Below are positions 43 through 42,715 of a stretch of DNA of 44,988 bases, one piece after another. The DNA is taken from positions 363,360 to 408,347 of the forward strand of contig NZ_JH711481.1 of the NCBI RefSeq assembly GCF_000269805.1, given 5' to 3'. The position numbers and the translations under genes are program-made. The first letter of the stretch is position 1. Each line of letters begins with the position of its first letter. The stretch is from Actinomyces massiliensis 4401292. GTDB taxonomy: Bacteria; Actinomycetota; Actinomycetes; Actinomycetales; Actinomycetaceae. The notes under the pieces are model-generated. The model saw nothing but the letters and a program-made list of their open reading frames with translations, searched no databases and was not told where the DNA came from.

Positions 43-108
43 ACCGATCTCGAGCCGGAACCGGACCGATCTCGACACGGGTTACGACCGATCTCGACAC
101 GCGCGGCG
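43..108 (+). repeat. 22-bp tandem repeat array 1 (3 units)
   Basis: Three units of the core ACCGATCTCG start at 43, 65 and 87, exactly 22 bases apart. The third unit degenerates after its core. The array lies just beyond the terminator-like hairpin of the nhaC operon. No protein is plausible here; the open frames that cross it only translate the repeat. Confidence 0.85.
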
Positions 109-110
109 GG

Positions 111-140
111 GTGCTGTCCGCCGAGGCCGGCGGACAGCAC
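111..140 (-). terminator. Hairpin downstream of the nhaC operon
   Basis: GTGCTGTCCGCC at 111-122 and GGCGGACAGCAC at 129-140 are perfect 12-base complementary arms around a 6-base loop. The hairpin sits 15 bases past the nhaC stop. There is no U-run, so it may act as a pause or 3'-end stabiliser and not as a classical terminator. Confidence 0.6.
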
Positions 141-155
141 TGGCAGGCCTCCGCA

Positions 156-1694
156 TCAGCCCTCGGCGAGCATCCGCTCCCGCTCCTGCGAGGACAGGCG
201 TGCGATCCCGATGCCGGTCGCGCCCCAGAGCATCGCGAAGAAGATGGCGATCCAGTTGGAGACGGCCCACGGCATGTAGCTGAGCGTGGCGACACCCAGT
301 GTTCCGGCCATGTAGGCGCCCGCAGAAGTCCACGGGAGAATCGGCTCCCACACTGTCGCGGCGTCCTCGATCGTCCGAGAGAGGTTCTTCGGGTGCAGGC
401 CCCGGCGAACGTACTCATCGCGCAGCATCTCGCCGGGGATGAGGAGGGAGACCTGCCCGTTGGAGGTGATGCCGATCGTCGCGAGGCCCGTGACGATCGT
501 GGCGAGAATGAGGCCGAAAGTCGAGTGGACCGGCTTGAGGACCCGGGAGATGAGGACGTCGAGGGAGCCCGAGACCGACACGACGCCGGCGAAGCTGATC
601 GCGCAGAAGCAGATGAGCAGGACACTCATCATCGAGTTCATGCCGCCGCGGTTGAGGAGGCGGCTCACGTCCTCGATGACGGCGGAGGCGTCGAAGCCCG
701 CCTTGCCGACCATGTCGACCTCGAAGCCGTTGACCCCGGCGACGACGGCATTCTTGAAGCTCACGTGCTCGAAGACGACGGCGTTGATCATGGCGCAGGC
801 CGCGGAGACCAGCATGACGGGGATCGTCGGCTTCTTCCAGATGGAGCCGCCCAGGACGACGACGACCGGAACCAGCAGCAGGATGTTCCAGTTGAAGGCG
901 GCATCGAGGGTGCTCAGGATCGTCCCCACCTTCTCGGGAACGGCCCCGCCGTGGGACTGGATGCCGAAGATGGTGTAGACGACAGCCGAGACGAGGAAGG
1001 CGGGGACAGTGGTCCACATGAGGTGCCGAATGTGCGTGAAGAGGTTCACGCCGGTGGCGACCGAGGCGATGTTCGTCGTGTCCGACAGCGGCGAGAGCTT
1101 GTCGCCGAAGTAGGCGCCGGCGACGATGGCCCCTGCGACCATCGGCAGGTTCGCGTCCACACCCATTGCCACGCCCATGAAGGCGACCCCGACCGTGCCC
1201 GCCGAGCCCCAGGAGGTGCCGGTGCACAGGGAGACGATCGCCGTGACGATGAGGGCGATGAGGGCGAGGAATTTCGGGCTGATGATCTTCAGCCCGAAGT
1301 AGATGAGCATGGGGATCGTGCCGCCGGCCATCCACGTGCCGATGAGGAGGCCGACGCAGATGAGGATGAGGATCGCCGGCATGGTCTTGGCGATCTTCTC
1401 CGCGATCGACGAGATGATCTCGTCCCACCCGTAGCCGAGGTACCGGGCGACGACGCCCGCGACGACGGCCGAGGCGATGAGGAGCGGCTCGACGGGCAGC
1501 TCCGCGGCGATATAGCCGCCGCCCAGGAGGACGATGAGGGTGAGGACGGGGATCGCGGCGACCCAGACGCTGGGACTCCGATGGGCACGGGCCTTGTCGG
1601 CCCGGTCGGCCCGGTCGGCCCGGTCGGCCCGGGGGCTCTCGGAGCCCTGGGAGCTGGTGGAGCCGGCATCGTCCTTGATGCGGGATTCGGACAT
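156..1694 (-). CDS. nhaC: NhaC-family Na+/H+ antiporter
   Basis: This is a 512-residue polytopic membrane protein of the NhaC family. Members exchange Na+ for H+, or in MleN-like members couple Na+/H+ to organic-acid exchange. The family signature GAYFGDKLSPLSDTTN is at residues 193-208. Hydrophobic segments run from about residue 43 to the C-terminus. The N-terminus is hydrophilic and carries ADR repeats (about 22-33) encoded by a 9-bp tandem repeat near 1597-1635, which is probably length-variable. It is the last gene of a minus-strand operon, 27 bases after the aminotransferase-like gene. The regulator and PLP enzyme upstream suggest the substrate could be an amino-acid breakdown product and not only sodium, but the sequence does not decide this. 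Confidence 0.88.
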   Translation of the reverse strand: MSESRIKDDAGSTSSQGSESPRADRADRADRADKARAHRSPSVWVAAIPVLTLIVLLGGGYIAAELPVEPLLIASAVVAGVVARYLGYGWDEIISSIAEKIAKTMPAILILICVGLLIGTWMAGGTIPMLIYFGLKIISPKFLALIALIVTAIVSLCTGTSWGSAGTVGVAFMGVAMGVDANLPMVAGAIVAGAYFGDKLSPLSDTTNIASVATGVNLFTHIRHLMWTTVPAFLVSAVVYTIFGIQSHGGAVPEKVGTILSTLDAAFNWNILLLVPVVVVLGGSIWKKPTIPVMLVSAACAMINAVVFEHVSFKNAVVAGVNGFEVDMVGKAGFDASAVIEDVSRLLNRGGMNSMMSVLLICFCAISFAGVVSVSGSLDVLISRVLKPVHSTFGLILATIVTGLATIGITSNGQVSLLIPGEMLRDEYVRRGLHPKNLSRTIEDAATVWEPILPWTSAGAYMAGTLGVATLSYMPWAVSNWIAIFFAMLWGATGIGIARLSSQERERMLAEG

Positions 1695-1721
1695 GAAGGG
1701 ATACCTTTCTCAGTTGTTTTC

Positions 1722-3035
1722 TCAGTGAGTGGGAACAGATCGTGATTGAGAACCGGCGGCCCCGGCAGTGCTGCCGGCTTCAGCGGCGCCGGCAGTGCTG
1801 CCGGCTTCAGCGGCGCCGACCGCGCCGACCGCACGGATCTCACGGCACAGACGCGGCAGTGCGGCGGCGAGCTCGCCCGCCGGCAGGGCCGTGTTGATGC
1901 GGAACCAGCCCGCGTAGCGCTCCCCGAAGTCCTCGCCGGGGGTGACCGCGACGCGGCAGGCCCGCACCGCGCGGTCGAGGTCGGCCTCGTCGCGCAGGTA
2001 GGAGCGCGCATCGACCCAGACGAGGTAGGTGCCGTCGGGATCCGCGACGCGGGCGCGGGGCAGCTCGGCCCGGACGATCCTCACGGCCTCGGCGAGATTG
2101 GCATCGATGAAGGCGCGAAGGCGATCGACCCACGGACCCCCTCGGGTCCATGCGGCGATGGCCGCCGGAATCGCGAAGTAGGAGGGGTTGTGCAGGCCCA
2201 TCCGGCGCTTGGCGGCCTCGAGCTCGTCCCCGAGGTCCCCGGGGGCGAGGACGGCGGTGGCCTCGAGGCCGGCAATGGTGAAGGTCTTCCCGGGCGAGGC
2301 GCACTGGATGAGGCGGCCCGATTCCCACAGGGCGGGGCGGGTACTGGCGATGGGGGCGTAGCGGGTGCGTCCGGGGCGCTGGAAGTCGGCGTGGATGTCA
2401 TCGGAGAGCACGAGGACGCCGGTGGGCAGGACCGCATCGGCGACGGCGCCCAGCTCCTCGGCCGTCCAGATGCGGCCGGTGGGGTTGTGCGGATTGCACA
2501 GCAGGAACAGGTCGGCGCCGTCGAGCGCCCGCTCAAGGGCCGGGATGTCGATTCGTGCGGGCGATGCGGGGAAGTCGTCCAGGAGGAGGGGGACGCGGCG
2601 GATCTCGGCACCGGACCGCTCGGCGACCTCGAGGAGCGGCCCGTAGGCCGGGTCGAGGGTGACGACGACGGGCCGGGCGGCGCGGCGGTCGGGAAGGACG
2701 ACATTGAGCAGGGCGCTCACGCACTGGACGACGCGTGGGAAGAAGCGGACGCAGCCGGGCTCGGGCGCCCAGCCGTGCCGCTCGCGCTGCCAGAGGACGG
2801 CCGCCCGCCTGAAGTCGTCGAAGACCTCCGTGTACCCGTAGGTCCCGTGCCGCGCGGCCGCGGTGACGGCGTCGATCACGCACGGGGCGGTGCGTAGCTC
2901 CATGTCGGCAACCGACATGCTGACGGCTTCGGGCCCGAGGCGGGCGGCGAGTAGATCCCACTTCGCGCTGTGGGTGCCCCAGCGGTCGAGGTGCTCCTCG
3001 AAGCCCCCGGCCCCCGACGGCGGCGCGGCGGTCAT
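1722..3035 (-). CDS. MalY/PatB-type PLP-dependent aminotransferase or C-S lyase
   Basis: This 437-residue fold-type I PLP enzyme resembles MalY/PatB cystathionine beta-lyases, which cleave cystathionine or cysteine to a thiol, pyruvate and ammonia. Supporting motifs are SVADMEL near 41, NPHNPTGR at 181-188, the cofactor-binding SDDIHAD at 211-217 and the Schiff-base lysine in SPGKTF (Lys250). The ATG overlaps the TGA of the upstream regulator in an ATGA, so the two are probably translationally coupled. The C-terminus carries a 27-bp direct duplication that encodes an Ala/Gly/Ser-rich tail (about 400-430) absent from typical relatives, so the tail is unlikely to be catalytic. Whether it acts as a beta-lyase or an aminotransferase cannot be read from the sequence. 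Confidence 0.85.
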   Translation of the reverse strand: MTAAPPSGAGGFEEHLDRWGTHSAKWDLLAARLGPEAVSMSVADMELRTAPCVIDAVTAAARHGTYGYTEVFDDFRRAAVLWQRERHGWAPEPGCVRFFPRVVQCVSALLNVVLPDRRAARPVVVTLDPAYGPLLEVAERSGAEIRRVPLLLDDFPASPARIDIPALERALDGADLFLLCNPHNPTGRIWTAEELGAVADAVLPTGVLVLSDDIHADFQRPGRTRYAPIASTRPALWESGRLIQCASPGKTFTIAGLEATAVLAPGDLGDELEAAKRRMGLHNPSYFAIPAAIAAWTRGGPWVDRLRAFIDANLAEAVRIVRAELPRARVADPDGTYLVWVDARSYLRDEADLDRAVRACRVAVTPGEDFGERYAGWFRINTALPAGELAAALPRLCREIRAVGAVGAAEAGSTAGAAEAGSTAGAAGSQSRSVPTH

Positions 3036-3913: not shown

Positions 3914-3973
3914 TGAGCTCTTCACACTCCATATCTAGCTCGATAGCAGCTATTAAAAGCCTTCATCGTTTTG

Positions 3974-3989
3974 TTGTTGAGGTCAACAA
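3974..3989. promoter_or_regulatory. Perfect inverted repeat between divergent regulators
   Basis: TTGTTGA and TCAACAA are perfect 7-base arms around GG, about 60 bases upstream of the DauR-like start and 300 bases upstream of oxyR. The placement suits an operator for the DauR-like regulator. The rest of the 3914-4289 divergent region shows no convincing gene. The oxyR Shine-Dalgarno AGGA lies 7 bases before its ATG. Confidence 0.5.
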
Positions 3990-4289
3990 TAAGCTGAAGA
4001 GTGGCCGGCGTCAACTCCTCTTTGAAGCCCTCAACACCCCGTGACACGCCTCCCCGCACCCCAGACCGGGCGGGTGTATGGACGAGCGGGCCGGCCGAAC
4101 CGGCAGCTGAGCGGCCCGGCCGAGTCGCCATCCGGACGGCCCGTCCGAGTGTGACGAACCACCACCGCCACCCCCGCTGTGATGTCACCTGTAAAACGGC
4201 TCAGATTAATTGGGAATACCGTACTGTTATCTAAAGAGTAGGCCTTCGCTTATCAAGAGCCCGACCATCTGACACCTTCAGGACTCCAC

Positions 4290-5219
4290 ATGCCCACTTC
4301 ATCCCCGCCCTCCTTCTCGCAACTCAGAGCCTTCGTCGCGCTATGCGATCACCAGCACTTCGGCGAGGCGGCCGCCACCCTCGGCGTGAGCCAGCCGAGC
4401 CTGTCCCAGGCGATCACCGCCCTGGAGAAGCGCGTCGGAGGAGAACTGGTCGAGCGCACCACTCGCCGAGTCCTCGTCACCCCGCTCGGCGAGACCCTGC
4501 TCCCCTACGCCCGCGAGGCCGTCCTGTCCGCGGAGTCGTTCAACGACGCCGTCGCCAGTCAGGGCGCCGCTCTGACCGGGACGATGCGCCTGGGCCTGAT
4601 CCCCACCCTCGCCCCCTACATGGCCCCGGTGATCCTCGACGGCCTGCCCGCCGAGCTGCCCTCCCTGCACCCCGAGCTGCGCGAGATGGTCACCGGCGAC
4701 ATCCTGGACATGCTGAGTCAGGGCCGTCTCGACGCCGCCGTCATCGCCATCGACGTCGACCTCCACCGCGCCGCCGCCGTGCCCATGTTCGACGAGCCGC
4801 TCGTCGTCCTGGTCCCCCGGAACCACCCCTGGGCCGGACGCACCGACCTGAGCACCGAGGAGCTCGAGGAGCAGCAATTGCTGCTCCTGGACGAGGGCAA
4901 CTGCCTGCGCGACCAGACGCTGGCCCTCTGCCAGCGCTACAGCTCCCACCCGCCGGCCGCCGTGGCCACGACCCTGTCCACGGTCGTGCGCATGGTCGTC
5001 CATGGCGTGGGCATCACCGTCGTGCCCGAAGGGGCGCTGCGCATGCTCGACCATGAGGACTACGCCGTCGCGCGCTTCGCCGGTCGCGGCCCGGTGCGCC
5101 GGATCGGCATCGTCCACCGCACCTCGTCCTCGCGCTCGGAGGATTTCACCCGACTCGCGAAGGTCCTCACTCGACTGGCGGCCGACGCCGGGCTGCCCAT
5201 GCTCCCCCTGAACGGCTGA
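4290..5219 (+). CDS. oxyR: OxyR-like LysR-family peroxide sensor
   Basis: This 309-residue LysR-type regulator has an N-terminal winged HTH (about 8-65, with GVSQPSLSQAI) and a C-terminal sensor domain. The key OxyR feature is present: two cysteines nine residues apart in the NCLRDQTLALC motif (Cys205 and Cys214). These match the peroxidatic and resolving pair Cys199/Cys208 of E. coli OxyR, which form a disulfide with H2O2 and switch on peroxide defence genes. AGGA precedes the chosen ATG by 7 bases. No ahpC, ahpD or katG gene adjoins it here, so its targets are probably elsewhere. The gene ends close to a hairpin element and a repeat array. Confidence 0.88.
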   Translation: MPTSSPPSFSQLRAFVALCDHQHFGEAAATLGVSQPSLSQAITALEKRVGGELVERTTRRVLVTPLGETLLPYAREAVLSAESFNDAVASQGAALTGTMRLGLIPTLAPYMAPVILDGLPAELPSLHPELREMVTGDILDMLSQGRLDAAVIAIDVDLHRAAAVPMFDEPLVVLVPRNHPWAGRTDLSTEELEEQQLLLLDEGNCLRDQTLALCQRYSSHPPAAVATTLSTVVRMVVHGVGITVVPEGALRMLDHEDYAVARFAGRGPVRRIGIVHRTSSSRSEDFTRLAKVLTRLAADAGLPMLPLNG

Positions 5220-5243
5220 GCGCGTACAACGGCGGCGGGCCCC

Positions 5244-5314
5244 GTCGAGGTCGACTTTTTCGAACGAGATCGACGGTGGCGCCGTCTGTTTCGTGCGAAA
5301 AAGTCGATCTCGAC
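5244..5314. repeat. Long hairpin element, family A copy 1
   Basis: The outer arms are about 24 bases with two mismatches. The left arm contains GTCGAGGTCGACTTTTTCG and the right arm its near-complement. A GC-rich inner hairpin (GACGG...CCGTC) sits in the loop. The element lies between oxyR and the lipid kinase, just before repeat array 2. Related copies are at 23012 and 24960. Confidence 0.8.
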
Positions 5315-5332
5315 GTACAGGCCCCAGCGCGG

Positions 5333-5420
5333 ACCGATCTCGCGGCGAGTTGCGACCGATCTCGACGCGGAACCGGACCGATCTCGAGCCGGAGTGCGAC
5401 CGATCTCGACGCGGCCGCTC
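5333..5420 (+). repeat. 22-bp tandem repeat array 2 (4 units)
   Basis: ACCGATCTCG cores begin at 5333, 5355, 5377 and 5399, with exact 22-base spacing. The 12 bases after each core differ between units. The array ends about 50 bases before the lipid kinase start and is followed by its putative -10. Confidence 0.88.
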
Positions 5421-5470: not shown

Positions 5471-6493
5471 ATGACCACGCGCCGGGACACGACGAGGGCA
5501 CGCACACGCCCCCTGGCCTGCGTCGTCGTCAACCCCAGCAAGCCCGCGGCGACCGACGCCGTCAGACGGCGCATCACCACCTCCCTGCGCAATGCCGGCT
5601 ACGTCGAGCCGGTCTGGCTGGAGACCACGCCCGCCGAGCCCGGCGTCATGCAGGCGCGCCTCGCCGTCGCCTCCGGGGCGAGCCTCGTTGTCGCGGCCGG
5701 CGGAGACGGGACCGTGCGAGCCGTCGCCGCCGGCACGGCCCGCACCGGCGTCGACATGGCGATCCTGCCCCTGGGCACTGCTAACCTCGCCGCCCGCAAT
5801 CTCGGCCTGCCCATCGGCCGCCTTGAGGCGGCACTCGAGGTGGCCGCACACGGCACAGCCCGGCCCGCGGACCTGGCGTGGGTGAGCACCGAGCCCGGCA
5901 GCGCCTCCCTTCCCGCACCGCCAGGCGGTTGGGCGCGCCCCACGCTGGGGAGCGAGCACGTCTGCATGGTGGTGGCCGGGATCGGCTTCGACGCGGGCCT
6001 GGTCGCCTCCACGCGCCCCGAGCTCAAGGCGCGGATCCGTTGGGGCGCCTACGCGGTGGCCGCGGTCGCCAACCTCGACTCCCCCCATATGGACATGGTC
6101 GTGCGGGTGCGAGAGACCGACGGCGGTGAGCGGGTCGAGCGCCTGCGCGGGCGCACCGTGCTGGTGGCCAACGGGGGTCGCCTGCCCGCCGGGATCACGC
6201 TGCTGCGCGAGGCGCGCATGGACGACGGCGTGCTGGATGTCGCGGTGATCGACACGGTCGGCGGCGTGGCCGGATGGAGCTCCCTGGCGCGCCAGGTCCT
6301 ACCGCCCTTCGCCGCCACCTACTCCGACCCCGCCCGCGCGCTGGGACGCGTGACTCTGCGTCGCGGCACCGAAGCGATCATTCGGCTCACCGACTCGGCA
6401 CCGGTCCAGGTCGACGGCGAATTGATCGCGCCCACACGCGGCCTGAGAGCGCGTATGGATGCGGGCTCGCTCCTCGTGCGGCGCCCCGACTGA
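5471..6493 (+). CDS. Diacylglycerol/sphingosine kinase-like lipid kinase
   Basis: This 340-residue protein of the DagK/LCB5/YegS family phosphorylates a lipid alcohol such as diacylglycerol with ATP. VVVNPSKP at 18-25 and the nucleotide-binding GGDGT at 77-81 are diagnostic, followed by the LPLGTANLAARNLG motif near 96-109. A C-terminal beta-sandwich with the VDGE motif is present near the end. The frame stays open 65 codons further upstream, but those codons translate the hairpin and repeat array. The ATG at 5471, preceded by a TACGCT -10, is the likely start. The gene converges on pheA with a gap of about 45 bases. Confidence 0.87.
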   Translation: MTTRRDTTRARTRPLACVVVNPSKPAATDAVRRRITTSLRNAGYVEPVWLETTPAEPGVMQARLAVASGASLVVAAGGDGTVRAVAAGTARTGVDMAILPLGTANLAARNLGLPIGRLEAALEVAAHGTARPADLAWVSTEPGSASLPAPPGGWARPTLGSEHVCMVVAGIGFDAGLVASTRPELKARIRWGAYAVAAVANLDSPHMDMVVRVRETDGGERVERLRGRTVLVANGGRLPAGITLLREARMDDGVLDVAVIDTVGGVAGWSSLARQVLPPFAATYSDPARALGRVTLRRGTEAIIRLTDSAPVQVDGELIAPTRGLRARMDAGSLLVRRPD

Positions 6494-7682: not shown

Positions 7683-7792
7683 ACCGATCTCGACGCGGAA
7701 CCCGACCGATCTCGAGCCGGAATACGACCGATCTCGACGCGGAGTACGACCGATCTCGCGGCGGAAGTGAACCGATCTCGAGGCGGAATAGG
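7683..7792 (+). repeat. 22-bp tandem repeat array 3 (5 units)
   Basis: Cores start at 7683, 7705, 7727, 7749 and 7771. The last unit runs directly into the TAGGCT -10 of the next gene, so the array occupies the expected -35 and upstream promoter space of the kinase-like gene. Confidence 0.9.
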
Positions 7793-7800: not shown

Positions 7801-8760
7801 GTGAGCAGCGCCGGTCCCACCTTCCGCAAGCACGACGATCTCCCTGGCGCCACCGGCCTGGAGGCCCTGGGCCTGGAGTGGCTGGCCGAGCCCATGGCCG
7901 ACGGCGGCGCCCACGTGGTCCCGGTGACGACCGGCCCGGGTTGGATCGATGAGCCCCGGCTGGCCGCCGGTTCCGTGACCGCTTCCGCCGCGGAGGCCTT
8001 CGGACGAGCGCTCGCGGTCACGCACGCCGCGGGCGCCCCCGTCTTCGGAGCGGCTCCGCCCGGTTGGGACGGTCGCACGCAGATGGGCCGCTCGAACGAG
8101 CGCATCCGACCCTGCCGGAGCGAACCTGCAGGAACCGCGCCCCGGCGATGGGGCGAGTTCTTCGCCGAGGACCGTCTGGCCCCCTACCTGGCGCCCTGTC
8201 TCGATCAGGGGTCGATGACGGCGCGGGATGTCGCCGTCATCGAGAGGGTCTGCGAGCGCCTGCGCGACGGCGCTTTCGACGCCGACCAGCCCGCGCTCGT
8301 GCGCCGAGCGGCCCGCGAGCGTGGGGACAGGATCGCCGTCGCCCGCACCCATGGCGACCTGTGGACCGGCAACGTCATGTGGGTGCCCGAGTGGACCATC
8401 GACTGGGCGCCGCCCCGGGCGGGACGCGGGCCGGGAGCCGACGACGCAGACGCCCCGGCGACCGCTGACGACCCCGCAGCACTCCCGGACCCGGCTCCAC
8501 GGAGAGGCGACGTCGTCGGCGTCCTCATCGACCCGCTCGCCCAGGGCGCGCACGGGGAGACGGACCTGGCGGCCCTGGGCGTGTTCGGGCAGCGCCATCT
8601 GGAGCGGATCGTCGCCGGATACGACGAGGCCTCGCCCCTGGCGGACGGGTGGCGCGAGCGCGTGGGCCTGCACCAGCTTCACCTGCTCATCATCCACGCC
8701 TTCATCTTCGGGGGCTCCTACGGCGCCGAGACGGCGTCCGTGGCCCGCCGCTACGCATAG
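7801..8760 (+). CDS. Fructosamine/ketosamine-3-kinase-like protein
   Basis: This 319-residue protein of the fructosamine kinase / aminoglycoside phosphotransferase-like family resembles enzymes that phosphorylate ketosamines on glycated protein or small amines so that they decompose. The catalytic HGDLWTGNV motif is at 184-192 (Asp186), and the metal-binding LIDPLAQGAHGETDLA lies further on. Between them is an unusually long, Asp/Pro/Ala-rich insert (about residues 205-238). The GTG start is supported by a TAGGCT six bases upstream. The product could act on another amino sugar. Confidence 0.85.
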   Translation: MSSAGPTFRKHDDLPGATGLEALGLEWLAEPMADGGAHVVPVTTGPGWIDEPRLAAGSVTASAAEAFGRALAVTHAAGAPVFGAAPPGWDGRTQMGRSNERIRPCRSEPAGTAPRRWGEFFAEDRLAPYLAPCLDQGSMTARDVAVIERVCERLRDGAFDADQPALVRRAARERGDRIAVARTHGDLWTGNVMWVPEWTIDWAPPRAGRGPGADDADAPATADDPAALPDPAPRRGDVVGVLIDPLAQGAHGETDLAALGVFGQRHLERIVAGYDEASPLADGWRERVGLHQLHLLIIHAFIFGGSYGAETASVARRYA

Positions 8761-15475: not shown

Positions 15476-15621
15476 GTAGTGCCGGTTATAGCGAGCGCCG
15501 GGGAATCAGGGGATCACGCGGATCGGGGAGTATCCGGCAATGCGGGAAGGCAGGATTCGTAGCGCATTCACAGGTTGCGCGGGGGCGAGCATTCAGGTGC
15601 GGCCGGTTGCATAGTGGCTGC

Positions 15622-15824
15622 CGCCGGACGGTGCGGGTCGTGAGGAACCGGATTCCCCACGGACAGGCCCGACCGAGAATCGCAGGGTTTACAGGGACCC
15701 CTGACGGATTCGCTCCGGCGAAGGAGGGTGTGCTCCCCGGATATCAGGGAACCCGGAGGTGAGCCCCTCGACGCCGCAGGCCCGCGGGCCGGGAGAGACA
15801 ACCCGGCGCCGCGGGCCCGGTCTT
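15622..15824 (+). ncRNA. Candidate structured RNA, copy 1, with terminator
   Basis: No protein gene fits here. A CATAGT at 15610-15615 could be a -10. The transcript would contain GCCGCCGGACGG...CGTGAGG, a GGCGAAGGAG block at 15717, a CTCC...GGAG hairpin and a strong hairpin with arms GGCCCGCGGGCCGGG (15779-15793) and 15802-15817, then GGTCTT. A second copy with the same order of blocks lies about 378 bases downstream. The two differ at many bases but keep the hairpins, as expected of RNA. No known family was recognised, and I see no clear -35. Confidence 0.55.
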
Positions 15825-15999
15825 CGAGGGCGGAGCACCCCCGCTTGTGCGACGAGCCGCTCATCCTGGAATTCACGATGAATGCACGACGAACGACTGC
15901 GCCACAACGGCCCGGATCGACCCGGGGAATCAGTTTCCTAGGCATTTCTCAGGCTTACCGGAGTAACTTTCCAGTCCGGTCCTGTTACATAATCGTTAC

Positions 16000-16204
16000 C
16001 GCCGGGCGGGGCGGACCGTGAGGGTTGGGGAGCCCATCGACCGGTTCGTCGCCGAGGTCAGGATGGGTCTTAGGGAGCCCGTCGCTGACCGTCCCGGCGA
16101 AGGAGGTGCACTCCCCGGGGATTGGGAACTCCGGGGCAGGGCTCCTTGATGACGCAGGCCCGCGGGCCGGGGGACATACCTCGGCCCGCGGGCCGAGTCT
16201 TTCC
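16000..16204 (+). ncRNA. Candidate structured RNA, copy 2, with terminator
   Basis: A better promoter is present here: CATAAT at 15988-15993. Blocks follow in the same order as copy 1: CCGTGAGG, GGCGAAGGAGG at 16096, a CCCCGG...CCGGGG hairpin, then a terminator hairpin with 13 perfect pairs (GGCCCGCGGGCCG at 16157-16169 and its complement at 16182-16194) followed by GAGTCTTTCC. It faces the ebgR-like gene tail to tail. It could be a free-standing small RNA or an orphan riboswitch-like element. Confidence 0.6.
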
Positions 16205-28000: not shown

Positions 28001-28008
28001 TCGTTCCT

Positions 28009-28094
28009 CCATCGGTCCTGGCGGAAGCACCTGCACCGCTAAGCGGAGGTTGCTGCAACGTCGATGAGCCAGGTCTCTCGGCTGCTCTAGATGG
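28009..28094 (-). promoter_or_regulatory. SAM riboswitch-like leader of metNIQ
   Basis: On the minus strand the leader reads GAGCAGCCGAGAGACCTGGC, then GACG, AGCAACC, a CCGC-TTA-GCGG hairpin and GGTGCTTCC. This matches the order and key words of the S-box/SAM-I-SAM-IV superfamily core. P2 can form as GCAGC/GTTGC. P1 pairs CCATC (28090-28094) with GATGG (28009-28013), which overlaps the first bases of the metN Shine-Dalgarno. Binding of SAM would thus hide the ribosome site. The usual P4 hairpin is not evident, which favours a SAM-I/IV or SAM-IV variant. Confidence 0.8.
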
Positions 28095-28102
28095 TCGGTT
28101 GA

Positions 28103-32831: not shown

Positions 32832-34583
32832 ATGACCCGGTCCCATTCTGAGTCCGCTGCTTCCTCTACACCTTCCTCGACACCCTCCACCCCCAGCACC
32901 ACCCGCACCGCCACCGACGTGGACGCCATCGCCGATCGCTACGTCGCACGCCTTGCCGACCTGTCCCCCGAGTTCGCCGTTTACAACGGGCTGCCCGGCC
33001 GCCGCGGCGAGCTCGACGACTACTCCCCAGAAGGCCTGGCTGCCCTGAGCGACCTGGACCGTTCAACCCTGCGCGAGCTGGATGCCGTCTCACCCACGGA
33101 CGACGTGGATCGCATCACCGTGGCCGCCATGCGCGAGCGCCTCGGGGTGAGCGTGGACCTGGCCGACGCCGGCGAGGAGCTGCGCTGCCTGAACGTCGTC
33201 GCTTCGCCGGTACAGAGCCTGCGGGACGGATTCGACAACATGCCCACCCGCACTGAGGAGGACTGGGCGGACTTCGCCTCCGCCCTGCGCGACGTCCCCC
33301 GGGCGCTGGACCAGTACGCCCAGTGCCTGCGTCTGGCGCTCTCCTGCGGCGACGTCGCGGCGCGGCGCCAGGTCGAGGCCGTCATTTCCCAAGCGCACAT
33401 CCAGGCCGCGGAGGACACGAGCTCCTACACGGCCCTGGTCGACAGCGCTATCACCGCCGACGGCGCACCGCTGTCGGCGGTGATGGCCGAGGATCTGCGC
33501 TCGGCCGCCGCCACCGCTCGAAAGGGCTACGTCCGCATCGCCCAGGTGCTGACCGATGAGATCCTGCCGTATGCGGGCAACACCGACGCCGTGGGCCGGG
33601 AGCGCTATGAGCGCTTCAGCCGGCATTTCCTGGGCGCTGTGGTCGACCTGGATGAGACCTACGAATGGGGCCGGGAGCGCCTGTCCGCGATTGACGCCGA
33701 GCAGCGGGCGATCGCCGAGCAGCTCTACGGGCCCGGGGTGAGCGTGCGCGAGGCTCTGGACCGGCTCAACACCGACCCCGAGCGCACCATCCATGGCACG
33801 CGGGCGCTGCAGGCATGGATGCAGGAGACCTCCGACGCTGCGATAGCGGCTCTCGACGGGGTCCACTTCGACATCCCCGCCCCGCTGCGAACCCTGGAGT
33901 GCCGCATAGCGCCGTCGGCCACCGGCGGCATCTACTACACCGGCCCGAGTGACGACTTCTCCCGGCCGGGGCGCATGTGGTGGTCGGTGCCGGCGGGGAC
34001 CGAGGACTTCGCCGCCTGGCAGGAGCGCACCACCGTCTTCCACGAGGGCGTGCCCGGCCACCATCTGCAGATCGGCATGCAGACCCTCCTGCGCGACGAG
34101 CTCAACTCCTGGCGCCGCCTGGTCTGCTGGGTGAGCGGGCACGGCGAGGGCTGGGCCCTGTACGCCGAGAAGCTCATGACGGACCTGGGTTTTCAGGATG
34201 ATCCGGGCGACCGCATGGGCATGCTCGACTCCCAGCGCCTGCGCGCGGCCCGGGTCGTCCTCGACATCGGTGTGCACCTGGGCAAGGAGCGGCCGCCCGA
34301 GCTGACGGATCTGCCCGGCGTGGGCGAGGGCATCTGGGATGCGGGCAGCGCCTGGGCCTTTCTGCGGCACAACGTGGCGATGGACGAGTCATTCCTGCGC
34401 TTCGAGTTGGACCGCTACCTGGGATGGCCGGGGCAGGCGCCGTCGTACGCGGTCGGGCAGCGGCTGTGGGAGGACGCGCGGGATCGCGCGCTTGCGGGCG
34501 GAGCGAGCCTGAAGGACTTCCACGCCCGAGCGCTGCGCCTGGGCAGCGTGGGGCTGGACGTCCTGCGCGAGGCCCTCGCCTAG
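32832..34583 (+). CDS. DUF885-family putative zinc metallopeptidase
   Basis: This 583-residue soluble protein of the DUF885 family has the expected metal-site motif HEGVPGHH (His404, Glu405, with two more His) and a later GEGWALYAEKL segment that supplies a further glutamate ligand. The first 30 residues are a Ser/Thr/Pro-rich tail, not a signal peptide. It is a predicted cytosolic peptidase of unknown substrate. It converges on the broken M20 gene, with repeat array 4 filling the whole gap between the two stops. Confidence 0.87.
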   Translation: MTRSHSESAASSTPSSTPSTPSTTRTATDVDAIADRYVARLADLSPEFAVYNGLPGRRGELDDYSPEGLAALSDLDRSTLRELDAVSPTDDVDRITVAAMRERLGVSVDLADAGEELRCLNVVASPVQSLRDGFDNMPTRTEEDWADFASALRDVPRALDQYAQCLRLALSCGDVAARRQVEAVISQAHIQAAEDTSSYTALVDSAITADGAPLSAVMAEDLRSAAATARKGYVRIAQVLTDEILPYAGNTDAVGRERYERFSRHFLGAVVDLDETYEWGRERLSAIDAEQRAIAEQLYGPGVSVREALDRLNTDPERTIHGTRALQAWMQETSDAAIAALDGVHFDIPAPLRTLECRIAPSATGGIYYTGPSDDFSRPGRMWWSVPAGTEDFAAWQERTTVFHEGVPGHHLQIGMQTLLRDELNSWRRLVCWVSGHGEGWALYAEKLMTDLGFQDDPGDRMGMLDSQRLRAARVVLDIGVHLGKERPPELTDLPGVGEGIWDAGSAWAFLRHNVAMDESFLRFELDRYLGWPGQAPSYAVGQRLWEDARDRALAGGASLKDFHARALRLGSVGLDVLREALA

Positions 34584-34596: not shown

Positions 34597-34694
34597 CGAG
34601 ATCGGTCGTACTCCGCACCGAAATCGGTCGCAACCCGCGCCGAGATCGGTCCGCTTCCGCGCCGAAATCGGTCGCAACCCGCGCCGAGATCGGT
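34597..34694 (-). repeat. 22-bp tandem repeat array 4 (5 units)
   Basis: CGAGATCGGT or its CGAAATCGGT variant recurs with exact 22-base spacing (ATCGGT at 34601, 34623, 34645, 34667 and 34689). Two non-adjacent units are identical. The array fills the gap between two convergent genes. Its first unit directly adjoins the M20 stop codon (TGAACCGATC on the minus strand). Confidence 0.9.
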
Positions 34695-35998
34695 TCAGCC
34701 CCAGAAGTGCTCGACATCGACGGCGCCGCCGGCGGCCCTCTCCATCTCCCGAGTGTGGAGGGCGACATCGGGACGGTCGGTGACCCTGATGAGCGGGTGG
34801 ATGCCGGGCACGCGCTGGGAGACATTGCCGAAGTCGGTGCCCGCCGCGATCGTCTCGGGCACGACCCCGGTGGGCAGCGGATCACGGCCGCGCTCGCGCT
34901 GGGAACGGACCCAGGCGGCGGTGAGCGGCCCGTTGGTGCGCACCGGCATTTCATTGGTGTACTCGGGGGTGATGATCTCGACTCCAGTGCCGGTCATCAG
35001 GGCGGCGCCGCGCAGAAGATCCTCCACGCGCCCCACCAGGTCCTTGAGGGTCTCGGGATACTTCGAGCGCACGAAGATATTCAGCTCACTGCGCTCGGGA
35101 ATGACATTGGGAACCCGACCGCCATCCACCACGACGGCGTGAAGGCGGTCCATGGGCAGGATCTGCTGGCGCATCATGCCGATCCCGGCCAGGGCGAGGG
35201 AGGCGGCATCAAGGGCGTTGCGCCCCATGAAGGGCTGCGACGCGGCATGCGCGGCCACGCCTGTGAACACGGCACGGATACGACGCACCCCCAGCCAGGT
35301 CTGATCGGCCAGGTCGTAGGCGTAGGAATGGGTCTGAATGGCAGCATCAACGCCGTCGAGCATGCCGCGCCGGGCGAGGATCTCCTTGGCGGTGTCGGGC
35401 TCCTCGGCAGGAGTGGTCTGAAGAATGATCCGACCGGGCAACGCGACGTCCTCATGGAGCGCCAGAGCGGCCAATGCGAGGAAGGCTCCCACGGAGTTGG
35501 CGCACATGACGTTGTGTCCGCAGGCATGACCGATGCCGGGCAGGGCGTCGTACTCGGCAAGAATGGCGATGGTGGGGCGGGGGCGCTCGCAGCAGAACCG
35601 GCGGTGCCAGCGGTGCCAGCGGTACTGGCAGAACCAGCAGAACCGGCAGACTCCGGGGCGCCCGTCCCGATCTCGGCGCGCAAAGCCGTATCCATGTCGT
35701 AGACCCCGACTCGGGGCTGAATGCCATGGGCCCGCAAGAGGTCAGCCACCGCGGCCACCGCATGATGCTCGCGGTATCCGACCTCGGGATGGGCATGAAT
35801 ATCGTGCGATAGGGAGATGATCTCGGGGGCGTAGTCGGCGATGGCGTCGGCCAGGGCGGCGCGCAGGGCCGACGGGGCGCCGGCATTCTCGGACAGGGCG
35901 ACGGCGGGAGCCGCGGCAGCGGTGCGGGCGGCGGTTTCAGCGGCCATGCGCTCCTGAACGGCACGACATGGCTCAGACGGGCGGGAGAGGTCACGCAT
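34695..35998 (-). pseudogene. M20-family amidohydrolase, frameshifted
   Basis: Two overlapping frames together encode one M20 peptidase of the amidohydrolase/PM20D2-AbgB type (about 434 residues). The first frame (from the ATG at 35998) gives ISLSHDIHAHPEVGYREH. The second gives PTIAILAEYDALPG, the metal-binding GHACGHN, the catalytic TTPAEEP and TDFGNVSQRVPG. Adding one C to a five-C run (35579-35583 on the plus strand, as G) would join them as APRPTIAIL. The gene is a recent pseudogene, a phase-variable gene, or has a sequencing error. A 9-bp tandem repeat precedes the break. Confidence 0.85.
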
Positions 35999-37913: not shown

Positions 37914-37919
37914 AGTTCG

Positions 37920-37925
37920 ACTATA
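37920..37925 (-). promoter_or_regulatory. Leaderless-type -10 (TATAGT) for the DUF4143 gene
   Basis: On the minus strand TATAGT, 6 bases, then ATG. It overlaps a near palindrome, CATAGT-TCG-ACTATA, which may be an operator. Confidence 0.55.
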
Positions 37926-38069
37926 GCCGACAATATCGCCCTATTCTGCGACATCCATAGGAACGCCACGACCCAACCCGCACATTCGCCTACAGTCATC
38001 ACATAGTTTCGCCACGGACGATCCCATAGTTTTGCCGCTACAAATCTTGCGACAAACAGCTCTTGCGCC

Positions 38070-39560: not shown

Positions 39561-39640
39561 GAGGCCAGGATCGCAGGTTTTCGCGGTTCTGGCGCTTCAG
39601 CCTCGCAGGACGGGACGCCTCGGGTGCGCGCACGGCCCGC

Positions 39641-40615
39641 TCAGCCCCGCGGCATGATGAAGGAACTGCCGAGCGCGAAGGGGAAGCCCGGCTTGAGCAC
39701 GGCATCCACGACCGGTTGGGCCAGCTCGATGAGGCCCTCGGTCTCGAAGCTCTGCTCGCCGTCGGGCCCCGAGGAGGCGAGGAGGCGGGAGTAGGGCGCA
39801 TCGATGTCGAGCAGAGCCATGCCATCGGCGTGGGTGGCGCGCTCCCAGGCGCCGCCCTCCATCTCGAGCAGAGTACCCAAGTGGAAGTGCATGACCTGCT
39901 CGCCATCGACGGTATCGACGTCGCTGGGCACGCTGAGCACATGATGGGGCTCGGGATCGCGCGGGGCGCGCAGGGTGAACAGGAGAATGGCGCTGTCGCG
40001 GGCGGCGCGCAGCATGAGCCGCGCCAGGTGAACGGTGAAGCCGGTGATGTCGAAGTCGGCGGGGCTGGAGCCCATGGCCTCTTCGACGGTCAGCGCCGGC
40101 GATAGGGGGACGGCGGCTCCGCGCCTGGGGTCGTTGAAGGCTCGCCGACCCGTGGGGGCCTCGGCCCGCAGGCGCAGGATCGGGCCGAACTCGGCAGGCT
40201 CGGCATTGGCCCCGACGTCGTCGGGATCGGAGCCGGGCGCCAGCAGAGTGCCGGTCTCCACGATCTCGACCCAGCCGTCGGGAGCGGTCGAGGGGCCGGG
40301 CTCGGTCTCGACCACCCCCATGCCGAGCACCGTGGCGAAGTCGGTGCCGTCGGTTGCACGATGCCAGGTGATCTCGGCGTCGTCATGCCAGATGGGGACG
40401 ACTCCGTTGAAAGGGATCCCGAAGCGGACGTGCTCGGGAGCCGCGTGCCTGCCTCGAGCGGGGGCGGCGGCGTGCCTGCCCCGCCGGGCGTGCCGGGCGC
40501 GTCGAGAGCGCCGGGTGTCCGGGCCTCCCAGGCCTCCCGAAGGTGAGTCGGGGATCGGCGTCCCGGAAGAGCTGGTGCTGGCATCGTCGTGCTTCCCCAC
40601 GAAGTACTCGCTCAT
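39641..40615 (-). CDS. Protein of unknown function
   Basis: I do not recognise this 324-residue soluble protein. Residues 15-60 are a Ser/Gly/Arg-rich low-complexity stretch. After it comes a well-composed domain with RFGIPFNGVVPIWHDDAEITWH and, later, HHVLSVPSDVDTVDGEQVMHF. No transmembrane segment or catalytic motif is evident. TAGGCT six bases before the ATG supports the start. It lies 80 bases upstream of the amidohydrolase on the same strand and could be co-expressed with it. Confidence 0.7.
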   Translation of the reverse strand: MSEYFVGKHDDASTSSSGTPIPDSPSGGLGGPDTRRSRRARHARRGRHAAAPARGRHAAPEHVRFGIPFNGVVPIWHDDAEITWHRATDGTDFATVLGMGVVETEPGPSTAPDGWVEIVETGTLLAPGSDPDDVGANAEPAEFGPILRLRAEAPTGRRAFNDPRRGAAVPLSPALTVEEAMGSSPADFDITGFTVHLARLMLRAARDSAILLFTLRAPRDPEPHHVLSVPSDVDTVDGEQVMHFHLGTLLEMEGGAWERATHADGMALLDIDAPYSRLLASSGPDGEQSFETEGLIELAQPVVDAVLKPGFPFALGSSFIMPRG

Positions 40616-40621
40616 GACAGC

Positions 40622-40627
40622 AGCCTA
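40622..40627 (-). promoter_or_regulatory. Leaderless-type -10 (TAGGCT) for the unknown gene
   Basis: On the minus strand TAGGCT, 6 bases, then the ATG at 40615. Confidence 0.5.
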
Positions 40628-40759
40628 CGGGGCGCATCCCGCAGCCGGCGCGGCGCTCGCGTGCGGCCGGCGGTGAACCGCTGCAGGCGAGAGGAGATGC
40701 ACGATGTGCTGGATGCGAATGCGCTCGGCGCCCCCGGGCTGCTCCGGGACCCCTCTCAC

Positions 40760-40865
40760 CGAAATCGGTCCGGTTCCGGCTCGAGATCGGTCGTACTCCG
40801 CGCCGAGATCGGTCCACTTCCAGCTCGAGATCGGTCCGGTTCCGCGTCGAGATCGGTCCACTTCT
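40760..40865 (-). repeat. 22-bp tandem repeat array 5, left part (5 units)
   Basis: ATCGGT occurs at 40764, 40786, 40808, 40830 and 40852. The array is cut by the insertion sequence. A short open frame beginning at 40697 (MHDVLDANALG) runs into it and is not supported as a gene. Confidence 0.9.
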
Positions 40866-41944
40866 GCTGTACTCGGTCATGAGGTTGGTGACACTCGGCT
40901 GATGGGGGGCTGGCCGTCGCAGGCGGTGTGGGGTCGAGTGTAGTTGTAGTGCTCGAGCCAGGGCGCGAGGGCGTCGGCGCGGTGCTGGTTGGAGACGTAG
41001 GGCGCTCGGTATGCCCAGTACTCCTGCATGGTGCGGTTGAAGCGCTCGGCCTTGCCGTTCTGCCAGGGACAGTGCGGTCGGGTAGTGATGTGTTTCGCCT
41101 CGATGCGGGTCAGCTCGCCCTGGAAGGCTGTGGAGACGGTGTAGTTCTTCGCGTTGTCGGTCATCACCTCGCGGATCTGGACGCCATGGCGGGCGAAGAA
41201 CTCCGCTGCGGCAGTGAGGAACGCCGCGCAGGTGGTGCCCTTCTCGTCAGGCAGGATCTGCGCGAACGCGAGCCGGGAGTGGTCATCGACGGCGACGTGG
41301 ACATAGTCGAACCCGAGCTTGGTGGACTTCACTCGACCGCGGTTGTGGTCGATCGCGTCGGGACCTTCGACGCGCCAGCCGCCGCCTTCGGGGACGCGGC
41401 CGAGTTTCTTTACGTCGACGTGGATCAGATCGCCCGGAGCGTCACGTTCGTAGCGGACCTGGGTGCGCCGTGAGGCGCGCAACGCGATCCCGGTAACTGG
41501 GTCCAGCTCGTGCAGCGCCGGAAGGCCGGCCCGGGCGATCAGGCGGGACGCGGTGCGCGGGCTCACCCCGCAGGCCCGGGCGATGTCGTCACGTCCGAGC
41601 CGCTCACGACTGCGCAGCTCGACCGCCGCCGCCGCGGTCTGCGCCGGTGTCGCCGATGGTGACGAGACCGGACGCGACGACCGGTCTGACAAGCCAGCTT
41701 CGCCGTGGGCGCGATAGCGAGTCAGCCAGCGGTGCGCGCACTGACGACAGACGCCCATCTCCTTCGCGACATGCGAGACGGGACGGCCGGCGAGGACCCG
41801 GCGCACGAGAATCAGCCGGCCCTTGACAGTGAGCCGCGCATTACGATGGACCAAGAGAAGGCCTCCACTTCGGTGACGTTAGACACCACCAATCGTGGAG
41901 GCCTTCTCCCTACCCGAGTGTCACCAACGTGCTGACCGAGTACA
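40866..41944 (-). mobile_element. IS481-family insertion sequence
   Basis: The ends TGTACTCGGTCA...GTTGGTGACACTCGG (40868-40898) and its complement at 41914-41944 match at 28 of 31 bases. A single transposase gene fills the element. The sequence TCT occurs on both sides (40863-40865 and 41945-41947) and is the likely target duplication, although two bases, GC, lie between the left TCT and the perfect inverted repeat. Confidence 0.9.
40877..41854 (-). CDS. IS481-family transposase
   Basis: This 325-residue DDE transposase has an N-terminal HTH (VSHVAKEMGVCRQCAHRWL, about 29-47), a second HTH (GRDDIARACGVSPRTASRLI) and an rve-type catalytic core with HVDVKKLGRVP, VMTDNAKNY and the glutamate in QNGKAERFNRT. 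It appears intact, so the element may be active. The stop codon lies inside the left inverted repeat. Confidence 0.93.
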   Translation of the reverse strand: MVHRNARLTVKGRLILVRRVLAGRPVSHVAKEMGVCRQCAHRWLTRYRAHGEAGLSDRSSRPVSSPSATPAQTAAAAVELRSRERLGRDDIARACGVSPRTASRLIARAGLPALHELDPVTGIALRASRRTQVRYERDAPGDLIHVDVKKLGRVPEGGGWRVEGPDAIDHNRGRVKSTKLGFDYVHVAVDDHSRLAFAQILPDEKGTTCAAFLTAAAEFFARHGVQIREVMTDNAKNYTVSTAFQGELTRIEAKHITTRPHCPWQNGKAERFNRTMQEYWAYRAPYVSNQHRADALAPWLEHYNYTRPHTACDGQPPISRVSPTS

Positions 41945-41947
41945 TCT

Positions 41948-41990
41948 AGCTCGAGATCGGTCGAACTCCGCGCCGAGATCGGTCCACTTC
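41948..41990 (-). repeat. 22-bp tandem repeat array 5, right part (2 units)
   Basis: ATCGGT occurs at 41956 and 41978. A third, degenerate unit continues to about 42000 without the GAT. Confidence 0.85.
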
Positions 41991-41999
41991 CGCGCCGAG

Positions 42000-42470
42000 G
42001 TTGCGGTGTGTCAGGACATCCGAGACAGGGCGAGTGCGTCGGGTGCGGTGATCAGGTGGAGTGCTTCTTGGGGCTGGGGGTCGTATGAGTCGGGCCGCAC
42101 CGCCGCGGGCCGACTGTGCCGGTGCTCGCGTGGGCCGGGGGTGGTGGGCTGTGAACACCTGAAGTCCACTCACGTGAATCCCCATACCCACGCGTGCCGG
42201 GGGCGGTCAATCGTTGCACACTCGCGTGCGCTCCGCGTCGACGGGAACCGCGAAATCATGCGGAACAGCAATACCGGTAACGGCCGCGGTCGAGCTCCCA
42301 TGTGCGCAGACCCCCCTCACCGCACATGGGAGCCCAACCACCACACATGACACTCGCCAGAAAAGCCCGTAATTCCAACAAAAACCAGCCCCCCACCCCG
42401 CAAAGACCCTGCCCTCCCATGTGCAACACCACAAACAACCACACCCACCAGACACGCCCACCACGCCCCA
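42000..42470. other. Intergenic region with a long hairpin, no supported gene
   Basis: GCTCCCATGTGCG (42294-42306) and its exact complement (42321-42333) flank a 14-base loop. A third copy of CTCCCATGTGC lies in direct orientation near 42415. The segment at 42006-42030 (GTGTCAGGACATCCGAGACA) looks like the end of an insertion sequence but has no partner here. No protein gene is plausible. Confidence 0.5.
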
Positions 42471-42477
42471 CACCAAG

Positions 42478-42505
42478 ATCGGTCGTATTCCGCCTCGCGA
42501 TCGGT
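42478..42505 (-). repeat. 22-bp repeat array 6 (2 units)
   Basis: ATCGGT occurs at 42478 and 42500, 22 bases apart. The flanking units are degenerate. It is in opposite orientation to array 7. Confidence 0.75.
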
Positions 42506-42615
42506 CCGATTCAGCCCAGCCGACCCAACATCGAAGCGCGCACGACAAGCTCAAGGACGAAGACCGCATGCCGCACCCCGCAACCACCAACGAGCAGCAA
42601 ATCCGCAGCAGCACG

Positions 42616-42715
42616 ACCGATCTCGACACGGGTTACGACCGATCTCGAGCTGGAAGTGGACCGATCTCGGCGTGGAGTACGACCGATCGCGAGCCGGAGA
42701 GCGACCGATCTCGGC
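42616..42715 (+). repeat. 22-bp tandem repeat array 7 (5 units)
   Basis: Cores begin at 42616, 42638, 42660, 42682 and 42704. The last unit abuts the stop codon of the lipoprotein gene at 42716. Confidence 0.9.

Follow-up and report, generated by a model that had tools for sequence, protein, structure and literature searches.

Direct arrays of a 22-bp unit in Actinomyces, a candidate REP/BIME-like extragenic element with polarity at gene 3' ends

We describe direct arrays of a 22-bp unit in Actinomyces whose tails lie close to gene 3' ends far more often than expected by chance. Our tentative interpretation is that they are a REP/BIME-like extragenic element of the genus, built differently, whose units would be recognition sites and whose arrays may form a polar transcript boundary. 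In the mechanism we propose, each unit, comprising CCG-R-N-Y-TCG and lineage-specific bases, would be a putative recognition site for a sequence-specific factor that, aligned along the array, would hinder RNA polymerase leaving the gene. Arrays would lengthen and shorten where they stand, two units (44 bp) at a time, would be duplicated as inverted pairs whose tails point outward, and would be lost and regained over the time of the genus. Judging from the pattern of constraint within the unit, base-specific recognition by a putative factor is highly probable, and DNA, rather than RNA, is probably what is recognized; the role at transcript boundaries is possible but open to real doubt. Should it hold, transcripts would be ended or insulated chromosome-wide by protein arrays, and the core would offer a ready bait for the protein. 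The 3'-end polarity, the core kept while the spacer is swapped, and the 44-bp dimer together with the outward-tail pairs are new here; in papers on Actinomyces, REPs or roadblocks, judged by titles and the beginnings of abstracts, no description of the arrays was found.

Arrays in the window

The window is the whole stretch of 44,988 nucleotides of Actinomyces massiliensis 4401292 that was analyzed. It contains 26 exact copies of the core ACCGATCTCG (100 dinucleotide shuffles: mean 0.26, maximum 2), one of them a lone copy at 9954 outside any array. With one mismatch tolerated there were 31 cores in 8 arrays, as counted by an array finder that takes 22-bp steps only. Core-to-core steps within the arrays were exactly 22 both in this listing and in a separate distance listing that had no such condition, bearing out the exact period given in the preliminary description. 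Its figure of about 31 units likewise stands, while its seven arrays become eight, the one at 41952 having been missed. The features are as follows.

43..96, + strand: array of 3 cores; tail pointing at the Na+/H+ antiporter gene 156-1694 (-), whose 3' end lies at a distance of 59 bp
5333..5408, + strand: array of 4 cores, flanked by a LysR-type gene, 4290-5219 (+), and a DAGK-type gene, 5471-6493 (+); tail toward a gene start, 62 bp away
7683..7780, + strand: array of 5 cores in a divergent gap; tail 20 bp from the start of a fructosamine-kinase-type gene, 7801-8760
34597..34694, - strand: array of 5 cores occupying almost the whole 111-bp gap between the convergent genes DUF885, 32919-34583 (+), and peptidase M20-type, 34695-35507 (-); tail toward the DUF885 stop, 13 bp away
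40760..40857, - strand: array of 5 cores adjoining an integrase-core (rve) gene, 40877-41566 (-); tail toward a gene start, 144 bp away
41952..41983, - strand: array of 2 cores abutting a copy of a repeated module of ~330 bp; tail toward a gene start, 385 bp away
42474..42505, - strand: array of 2 cores, each one change from ACCGATCTCG, forming the left-hand member of an outward-tail pair; the closest gene beyond its tail (a gene start) lies 907 bp off
42506..42615, no strand: 110-bp module separating the arrays 42474..42505 and 42616..42713
42616..42713, + strand: array of 5 cores, forming the right-hand member of the outward-tail pair; 2 bp separate its tail from the gene 42716-43393 (-), at the 3' end of that gene

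For three of the eight tails, a gene 3' end is thus no more than 60 bp away; the other five point toward gene starts (distances 20, 62, 144, 385 and 907 bp), and the arrays at 5333, 7683 and 40760 run against the 3'-end rule set out below.

Structure of the unit

Arrays range from 2 to 9 cores. Among the 229 units in 438 kb of the source genome, we counted 113 different 12-mer spacers, and the nine commonest spacer second halves accounted for 166 units. The small set of modules envisaged initially is partly borne out. The two halves were not independent (mutual information 0.552 compared to a maximum of 0.489 in 1000 shuffles, computed on the 151 of 229 units with the commonest modules); spacer mutual information lay mostly between adjacent bases. 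In the 46 arrays with at least three full units, neighboring units were less alike than order-shuffled ones (12-mer identity 0.567 vs 0.62) and next-but-one units were more alike (0.74 vs 0.622); neither figure was matched in 5000 shuffles. Since units alternate in this manner, what is amplified is a 44-bp dimer. Free shuffling of modules is unsupported in the form first described, tandem amplification of two-unit blocks accounting for much of the order.

Constraint within the unit was measured on 123 interior units, each read blind to its own core. Departures from the commonest base occurred in 0-4% of units at positions 1-6, 8-10, 14-16 and 22, in 17-26% at positions 7, 13 and 17, and in 38-66% at positions 11, 12 and 18-21. 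Such base-specific constraint fits recognition by a protein, and putative binding along one face of the DNA is possible. A spacing of exactly 22 bp is not obligatory, since the relative G030 carries 23-bp arrays of the same core alongside 22-bp ones. The array tail is G-rich, a feature absent from the preliminary description, as are the 3'-end polarity, the outward-tail pairs and the replacement of the spacer among species.

Polarity at gene 3' ends

We compared eight sets of arrays, including those of the source genome (G000) and of the genomes assigned to A. gerencseriae (G028) and A. israelii (G060), with random placements that rely on rough gene calls from our own codon-model script. In all eight sets, tails at most 60 bp from a gene 3' end were commoner than the random mean, and in seven sets they outnumbered those of every one of 300 random runs. 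The respective counts were 29 of 72 for the main source-genome set (random mean 4.4, maximum 13), 11 of 20 for other samples of that genome (2.1, 8), 10 of 20 for A. gerencseriae (1.8, 7), 14 of 42 for A. israelii (3.1, 7), 7 of 10 for G033 (1.3, 5) and 3 of 4 for G031 (0.4, 3, a tie). With double-strand matches removed, they were 6 of 13 for G005 (0.6, 4) and 5 of 9 for G030 (0.9, 4), compared to 6 of 15 and 6 of 10 before this one-strand recount. Arrays overlapping a gene call or an edge were excluded, amounting, in the order just given, to 5 of 77, 3 of 23, 1 of 21, 3 of 45, 0 of 10, 3 of 7, 1 of 14 and 0 of 9. Tail-to-start, head-to-end and head-to-start counts all fell inside the random range in the same sets.

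With the array length removed, arrays stood at 2 of 441 ends in co-directional gaps below 60 bp and at 12 of 158 ends in convergent gaps below 60 bp (seven genomes); arrays avoid tight co-directional gaps. Between stop and array, the sequence held 0.436 C and 0.311 G in the source genome, compared to 0.349 and 0.346 at other ends (n = 29 and 241), and 0.532 C and 0.294 G in A. gerencseriae, compared to 0.393 and 0.365 (n = 10 and 214). Read from the gene, the order is stop, C-rich stretch, CGAGATCGGT, spacer, CGAGATCGGT, and on. Arrays that are often set in a fixed direction after genes, with a core that hardly changes although the remainder drifts among species, suggest landing pads for a putative protein at gene ends.

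Distribution and shared positions

The source genome contains 544 exact core-12N-core pairs (284 forward and 260 reverse) and none for the reversed-pattern control, so that the genome-wide search proposed at the outset returned a structured family with a fixed period. A looser pattern gave 1-675 pairs in 36 of 49 Actinomyces genomes (reversed controls 0-1), with at least 73 in 12 of them, just 1-4 in several, and no match in the other 13; the 600 pairs of G005 may include double matches, since some of its units are near-palindromic in the looser core. Between species the core is constant as CCG-R-N-Y-TCG and the spacer is replaced, G015 and G067 being among the examples. The three-core pattern had zero matches in 84 further sampled genera of the order, and the pair pattern had none in viral contigs. 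Density within the source genome was uneven (77 arrays in 438 kb vs 23 in 400 kb sampled elsewhere); with regard to a chromosome-arm bias, composition and strand bias gave no origin or terminus position. G005 (8) and G030 (4) also carry another array family, whose core is TTGGACC and whose period is 18-20; its arrays lie outside the 3'-end rule because they are at least 225 bp from called genes.

At orthologous ends of the source genome and A. israelii, an array was present in both in 7 cases, in the source only in 2, in A. israelii only in 4 and in neither in 23, most A. israelii loci having been chosen for their arrays and either array direction being counted; array position is partly inherited. 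The corresponding numbers for A. israelii and A. gerencseriae were 2 in both, 10 in one and 31 in neither, and beyond this trio of species 1, 11 and 43. Location is poorly shared even between close species. As a side observation, convergent neighbors were found on the array side in 6 and on the other side in 3 of 8 inspected one-sided ortholog pairs (of 16), a weak difference; in 12 one-sided pairs from the comparison beyond the trio the numbers were 8 and 5, and cases may overlap between the two series.

An alternative is that the arrays are purely selfish REP-like repeats, in which a putative mobilizer reads the core, copies survive where they are harmless (at transcript ends and outside operons) and the host derives no function. 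We consider this a serious contender, with about the same weight as our own interpretation and less than even odds for either. In its favor are copy numbers that vary strongly among species, uneven density, the few ends shared (2 of 12 array-bearing ends for A. israelii and A. gerencseriae, 1 of 12 beyond the trio) and the copied noncoding modules that adjoin arrays. It is also favored by the arrangement of opposite-direction neighbors within 600 bp in one gap, whose tails point outward in 40 of 41 cases (four overlapping G005 matches having been dropped as double matches of the near-palindromic core); such pairs also occur in tandem (22) and divergent (4) gaps. Tolerance alone, however, gives no direction, yet tails sit near gene 3' ends far above chance; 7 of 13 array-bearing ends are common to the source genome and A. 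israelii; and the RAYT (Y1 transposase, PF01797) was found in 0 of 13 Actinomyces genomes, compared to 5 of 14 control genomes. Were the selfish reading alone true, the arrays would be a high-copy extragenic repeat family, with no RAYT detected, that keeps its core and swaps its spacer, and what multiplies such repeats would become a testable question.

RNA folding and terminators

An RNA-level signal in the 3' UTR, in which the C-rich stretch and the transcribed repeat recruit Rho or an RNA-binding protein, would explain the preferred sense orientation and the C-richer stretch between stop and array in the source genome and A. gerencseriae. We nevertheless regard it as improbable. The 26 source-genome arrays with at least five cores gave no general fold signal on either strand (z -4.1 to +3.1 against single-base shuffles), the sole array below -2.4 being the outlier C1:351377 (z -4.1 and -3.8), and the mutual information between mostly adjacent spacer bases likewise argues against it. 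The three window matches to Rfam 15 at the gathering threshold did not fall at arrays.

The idea that arrays replace T-run hairpins was unsupported, such hairpins being no rarer at array ends (19 of 87) than at other ends (135 of 820). Stems of at least 11 bp, counted without the 27 ends that have inverted pairs, occurred in 2 of 40 convergent gaps with arrays vs 74 of 399 without (p = 0.028, uncorrected, and the array itself occupies room) and at 3 of 38 tandem ends with arrays vs 44 of 489 without (p = 1; both classes combined, p = 0.11). At the DUF885 3' junction found in the window, a stem of at least 13 bp was missing from all 3 genomes that have an array there and present in 9 of the 18 that have none. 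The array which G036 has at this junction is directed away from the DUF885 gene. A more specific form of the boundary reading, in which a share of transcript ends is marked by arrays where a dedicated factor recognizes CCG-R-N-Y-TCG at 22-bp intervals, stops or insulates polymerase one way and replaces hairpin terminators at many gene ends while its spacer contacts drift, seems unlikely to us; under it, species drift of the protein's extra spacer contacts would mean that arrays and protein co-evolve.

Inverted pairs and copied modules

Outward-tail pairs are separated by 8-9, 18, about 60, about 110 and up to 599 bp. Identical spacers across the two halves of close pairs were found in 6 of 8 pairs in G036, 5 of 5 in G004 (each of these sets including one gap-18 pair), 1 of 1 in G033, 1 of 2 in the source genome and 0 of 2 in A. 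israelii, one of whose close pairs appeared in two sets and was counted once. Many arrays belong to pairs in G036 (18 of 26), G004 (12 of 22) and G033 (6 of 10), and some inverted pairs in these three genomes form perfect palindromes (hairpins). The gap lengths, the identical spacers and the frequency of pairing speak for arrays as tandem transposase sites at the tips of a transposon family, as in multi-site transposon ends, with pairs 8-600 bp apart as miniature elements. We judge this very unlikely, given that single arrays make up 61 of 93 intergenic arrays in the source genome and all of those in A. gerencseriae (20), G030 (10) and G031 (6). In addition, arrays within 250 bp on both sides flanked 10 different genes (11 rows), and a single one of these recurs across species (G004 and G036). 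Its DUF559 match (E 0.035) was below the cut-off, and it was dropped as an unproven enclosed mobilizer.

Related modules, 109-111 bp long and each flanked by a minus and a plus array, are found at six places in 438 kb, including 42506..42615. By eye the 110-bp module resembled a LacI-type C-terminus; we leave it without a name because one search gave a WD40-repeat match (E 6.3e-06, 25 residues) and another gave nothing.

Finally, ordinary minisatellites, arising by chance tandem duplication without recognition, are highly improbable: they would account for two-unit expansion and length variation but scarcely for a core constant across species despite different spacers, for polarity at gene ends, or for the contrast between fixed and free positions inside the unit.

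Relation to known systems

REP, BIME and REPIN elements of enterobacteria and pseudomonads are short extragenic repeats. The Actinomyces arrays resemble them in numbering up to hundreds, in often lying at transcript ends, in occurring as singles, inverted doublets and clusters, and in having lineage-specific sequence. Unlike REPs, they iterate a 22-bp core in direct arrays, with no RAYT in the 13 genomes. As regards a hairpin-forming unit, single arrays of the source genome gave no general fold signal, and inverted pairs of G036, G004 and G033 form perfect palindromes. An extract of PMC3733652 names REP tags, GTAG or CGTC, at one end; by-eye inspection of the consensus units revealed neither. 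An extract of PMC2817692 describes BIMEs as regularly spaced REPs in alternating orientation. In contrast, Actinomyces arrays are direct, and opposite neighbors occur as two-array pairs.

Plasmid and phage iterons are direct repeats of ~22 bp, about two helical turns, with a fixed core. The arrays have the ~22-bp direct repeats and fixed core in common with them, but occupy many chromosomal places, often gene ends, rather than one origin. Transposons with multi-site ends, Tn7 among them, carry several ~22-bp sites, inverted between the two ends; here no enclosed transposase was found, and despite the outward tails of opposite neighbors, which recall a MITE or transposon end, most source-genome arrays are single. 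Intrinsic and roadblock terminators follow stop codons and are polar. Post-stop position, polarity and avoidance of tight co-directional gaps are common to the arrays and terminators, although array ends show no difference from other ends in T-run hairpins. CRISPR loci have unique spacers at one or a few places; the arrays share the repeat-spacer look, but their 12-bp spacers recur, each array has 2-9 cores, and there are 77 arrays in 438 kb.

Unit structure and growth of the arrays

The window contains 31 cores (≤1 mismatch per core) in 8 arrays with a step of exactly 22 bp; the exact core is present 26 times in the window, compared to 0.26 expected. Throughout the source genome (G000; 3.37 Mb, 13 contigs), exact core-12N-core pairs number 544, while the reversed pattern is absent (0). 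Within the first 438 kb, 132 sequence windows of noncoding DNA repeat at lag 22, compared to a median of 1 for lags between 12 and 60, and this same region contains 77 arrays of 2-9 cores each.

The unit consensus in the source genome is ACCGATCTCGRnSCGGAnnnSG. Scoring 123 interior units without regard to their own core, we found the core to be perfect in 94, altered once in 29, and altered more than once in 0. Positions 1-6, 8-10, 14-16 and 22 are nearly fixed (0-4% of units deviate), positions 7, 13 and 17 are intermediate (17-26%), and positions 11, 12 and 18-21 are free (38-66%). Since all bases of a unit share one copying history, this contrast between fixed and free positions points to base-specific recognition, as far as the sequences can indicate. 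Likeness was 0.74 between next-but-one units and 0.567 between adjacent units (0.62 for adjacent units after shuffling), and 0 of 5000 shuffles matched either value; arrays thus grow by 44-bp dimers. Pairs with the spacer NNNCGGAACCGG total 59; the initial 450 kb of contig C1 accounts for 23 of them and contig C2 (748 kb) for 1.

Distribution and turnover within Actinomyces

The pattern CCG-R-N-Y-TCG at 22-bp spacing was matched in 36 of 49 Actinomyces genomes (controls, 0-1). Pairs were most numerous in the source genome (675), its relative G005 (600, a figure that can include double matches), A. israelii (333) and A. gerencseriae (271); the rest of the top twelve had 212, 173, 155, 120, 111, 106, 75 and 73. 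In a separate scan of named genomes (at least 84 stretches), the 80 matches listed all came from A. israelii, A. gerencseriae, A. ruminicola, A. ruminis or A. succiniciruminis, which identifies the genus as Actinomyces. When 248 genomes from across the order were searched with a three-core pattern, hits fell in 3 Actinomyces genomes, with none in the other 84 genera; the reversed control gave 1 match.

The spacer is RnSCGGAnnnSG in the source genome, and those of A. israelii and A. gerencseriae are close to it. In other relatives it is RTSGTnATWWCn (G005), GYACGTAASATCT with a 23-bp step (G030), MTCCTRWTTTCG (G036), MGGTCAGGATGT (G031) or CGTGTCGTTTCCG-like (G015). At orthologous gene ends, the source genome and A. 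israelii both carried an array in 7 cases, one did in 6 and neither in 23; the source genome and A. gerencseriae both did in 1 and neither in 10; and A. israelii and A. gerencseriae both did in 2, one in 10 and neither in 31, the loci of all three comparisons being partly chosen for holding arrays. Beyond this trio, the counts were 1 (both), 11 (one) and 43 (neither). Array location is thus inherited in part and turning over.

Polarity toward gene 3' ends

In the main sample, 29 of 72 placed arrays had their tail, the array end beyond the last core, ≤60 bp from a gene 3' end, compared to a mean of 4.4 and a maximum of 13 over 300 runs of random placement; the three other array-gene relations fell inside the random range. 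The preference recurred in 11 of 20 arrays from 20 other places of the source genome and in six relatives, although in the smallest set (G031; 3 of 4 tails) the count equals that of the largest random run. Of the window's 8 arrays, 3 follow this rule; the other 5 point their tails at gene starts, in two cases from distances of 20 and 62 bp. Arrays avoid narrow gaps between co-directional genes.

Read in the gene's direction, the stop is followed by a C-rich stretch and then by CGAGATCGGT, onward. Bases resembling GCGAAGGGG adjoin the tail in many arrays of several species, and tail conservation over 100 arrays of the source genome is moderate (G 0.61, C 0.65 and G 0.82, followed by positions that are mainly G, at 0.36-0.57).

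Outward pairs and hairpins

Where neighbours of opposite direction lay ≤600 bp apart in one gap, tails pointed outward in 40 of 41 pairs (14 in convergent, 22 in tandem and 4 in divergent gaps), excluding four overlapping double matches in G005. Many close pairs in the relatives G036 and G004 are perfect palindromes with a loop of 8-9 bp. A. israelii has the same outward geometry with unlike halves, suggesting that the paired layout can persist with no need for spacer pairing.

Arrays lie behind the DUF885 gene (window 32919-34583) in 3 of 21 genomes, namely the source genome, A. israelii and G036, the last in opposite direction. At this junction, stems of ≥13 bp were found in 0 of the 3 array-bearing and 9 of the 18 array-free genomes; z was ≤ -3 in 9 of the 18 array-free genomes (each from 20 single-base shuffles). 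Genome-wide, stems of ≥11 bp occurred at 2 of 40 convergent ends with arrays versus 74 of 399 without (p=0.028), a weak contrast confounded by the room that the array takes up. Tandem ends displayed no stem difference (convergent and tandem combined, p=0.11), and T-run hairpins no deficit at array ends.

Relation to known elements and possible function

Iterons, Tn7 ends, CRISPR and terminators were also compared. The arrays act most like REP/BIME elements (PMC3733652, PMC2817692). They differ in that no RAYT, the Y1 transposase linked to REP elements, was detected in Actinomyces (0 of 13 genomes), and in being direct arrays without a general fold signal; we therefore do not class them as REP. 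A literature search of titles and abstract starts found no description of these arrays.

At the level of DNA sequence, the analysis demonstrates base-specific constraint, a fixed period within arrays, polarity toward gene ends, a two-unit order and outward pairs. A putative DNA-binding factor may align along the array, which would act as a polar boundary to RNA polymerase. That the arrays are selfish is about equally probable, because their copy number, location and density shift quickly and copied noncoding modules border them.

Neighboring repeats and other features

Further features of the window are as follows.

About 5243-5316, a palindromic repeat of ~74 bp lying immediately upstream of the 5333 array; related copies adjoin the arrays at C1:314281 and C1:356082
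15617-15726 and 15995-16105 (+), the Actinomyces-1 RNA (Rfam RF02928) in duplicate, 268 bp apart
28006-28097 (-), a SAM riboswitch (Rfam RF00162) at 47 bits, just above the gathering score of 44.4
About 42028-42461, a ~330-bp dispersed noncoding module

The ~330-bp module recurs roughly ten times elsewhere in 438 kb of C1, often between or adjoining arrays, and contains repeated GCACATGGGAG / CTCCCATGTGC motifs and TTCCGCATGATTCCGCGG. Sampled stretches of G030 (L217-L221) and G005 (L210-L216) contain another tandem family, whose core is TTGGACC and whose period is 18-20; it is found in part as inverted pairs and lies ≥225 bp from the nearest called genes.

Some array pairs ~60 bp apart enclose CCACAG...CTGTGG in G036, G004 and G033 (L202-L209, L250-L269). 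This motif lay ≤60 bp from the head in 4 of 26, 5 of 23 and 3 of 10 arrays, respectively (expected 0.6, 0.7 and 0.4); six other genomes had just 0-1 near heads, with 0.2-2.9 expected. TATCCACAG resembles a DnaA box. Finally, a protein of 365-367 aa (L267, 12761-13864, +; orthologue in G036) has a sub-threshold match to DUF559 (E 0.035), and its gene is flanked by arrays on both sides in G004 and in G036.
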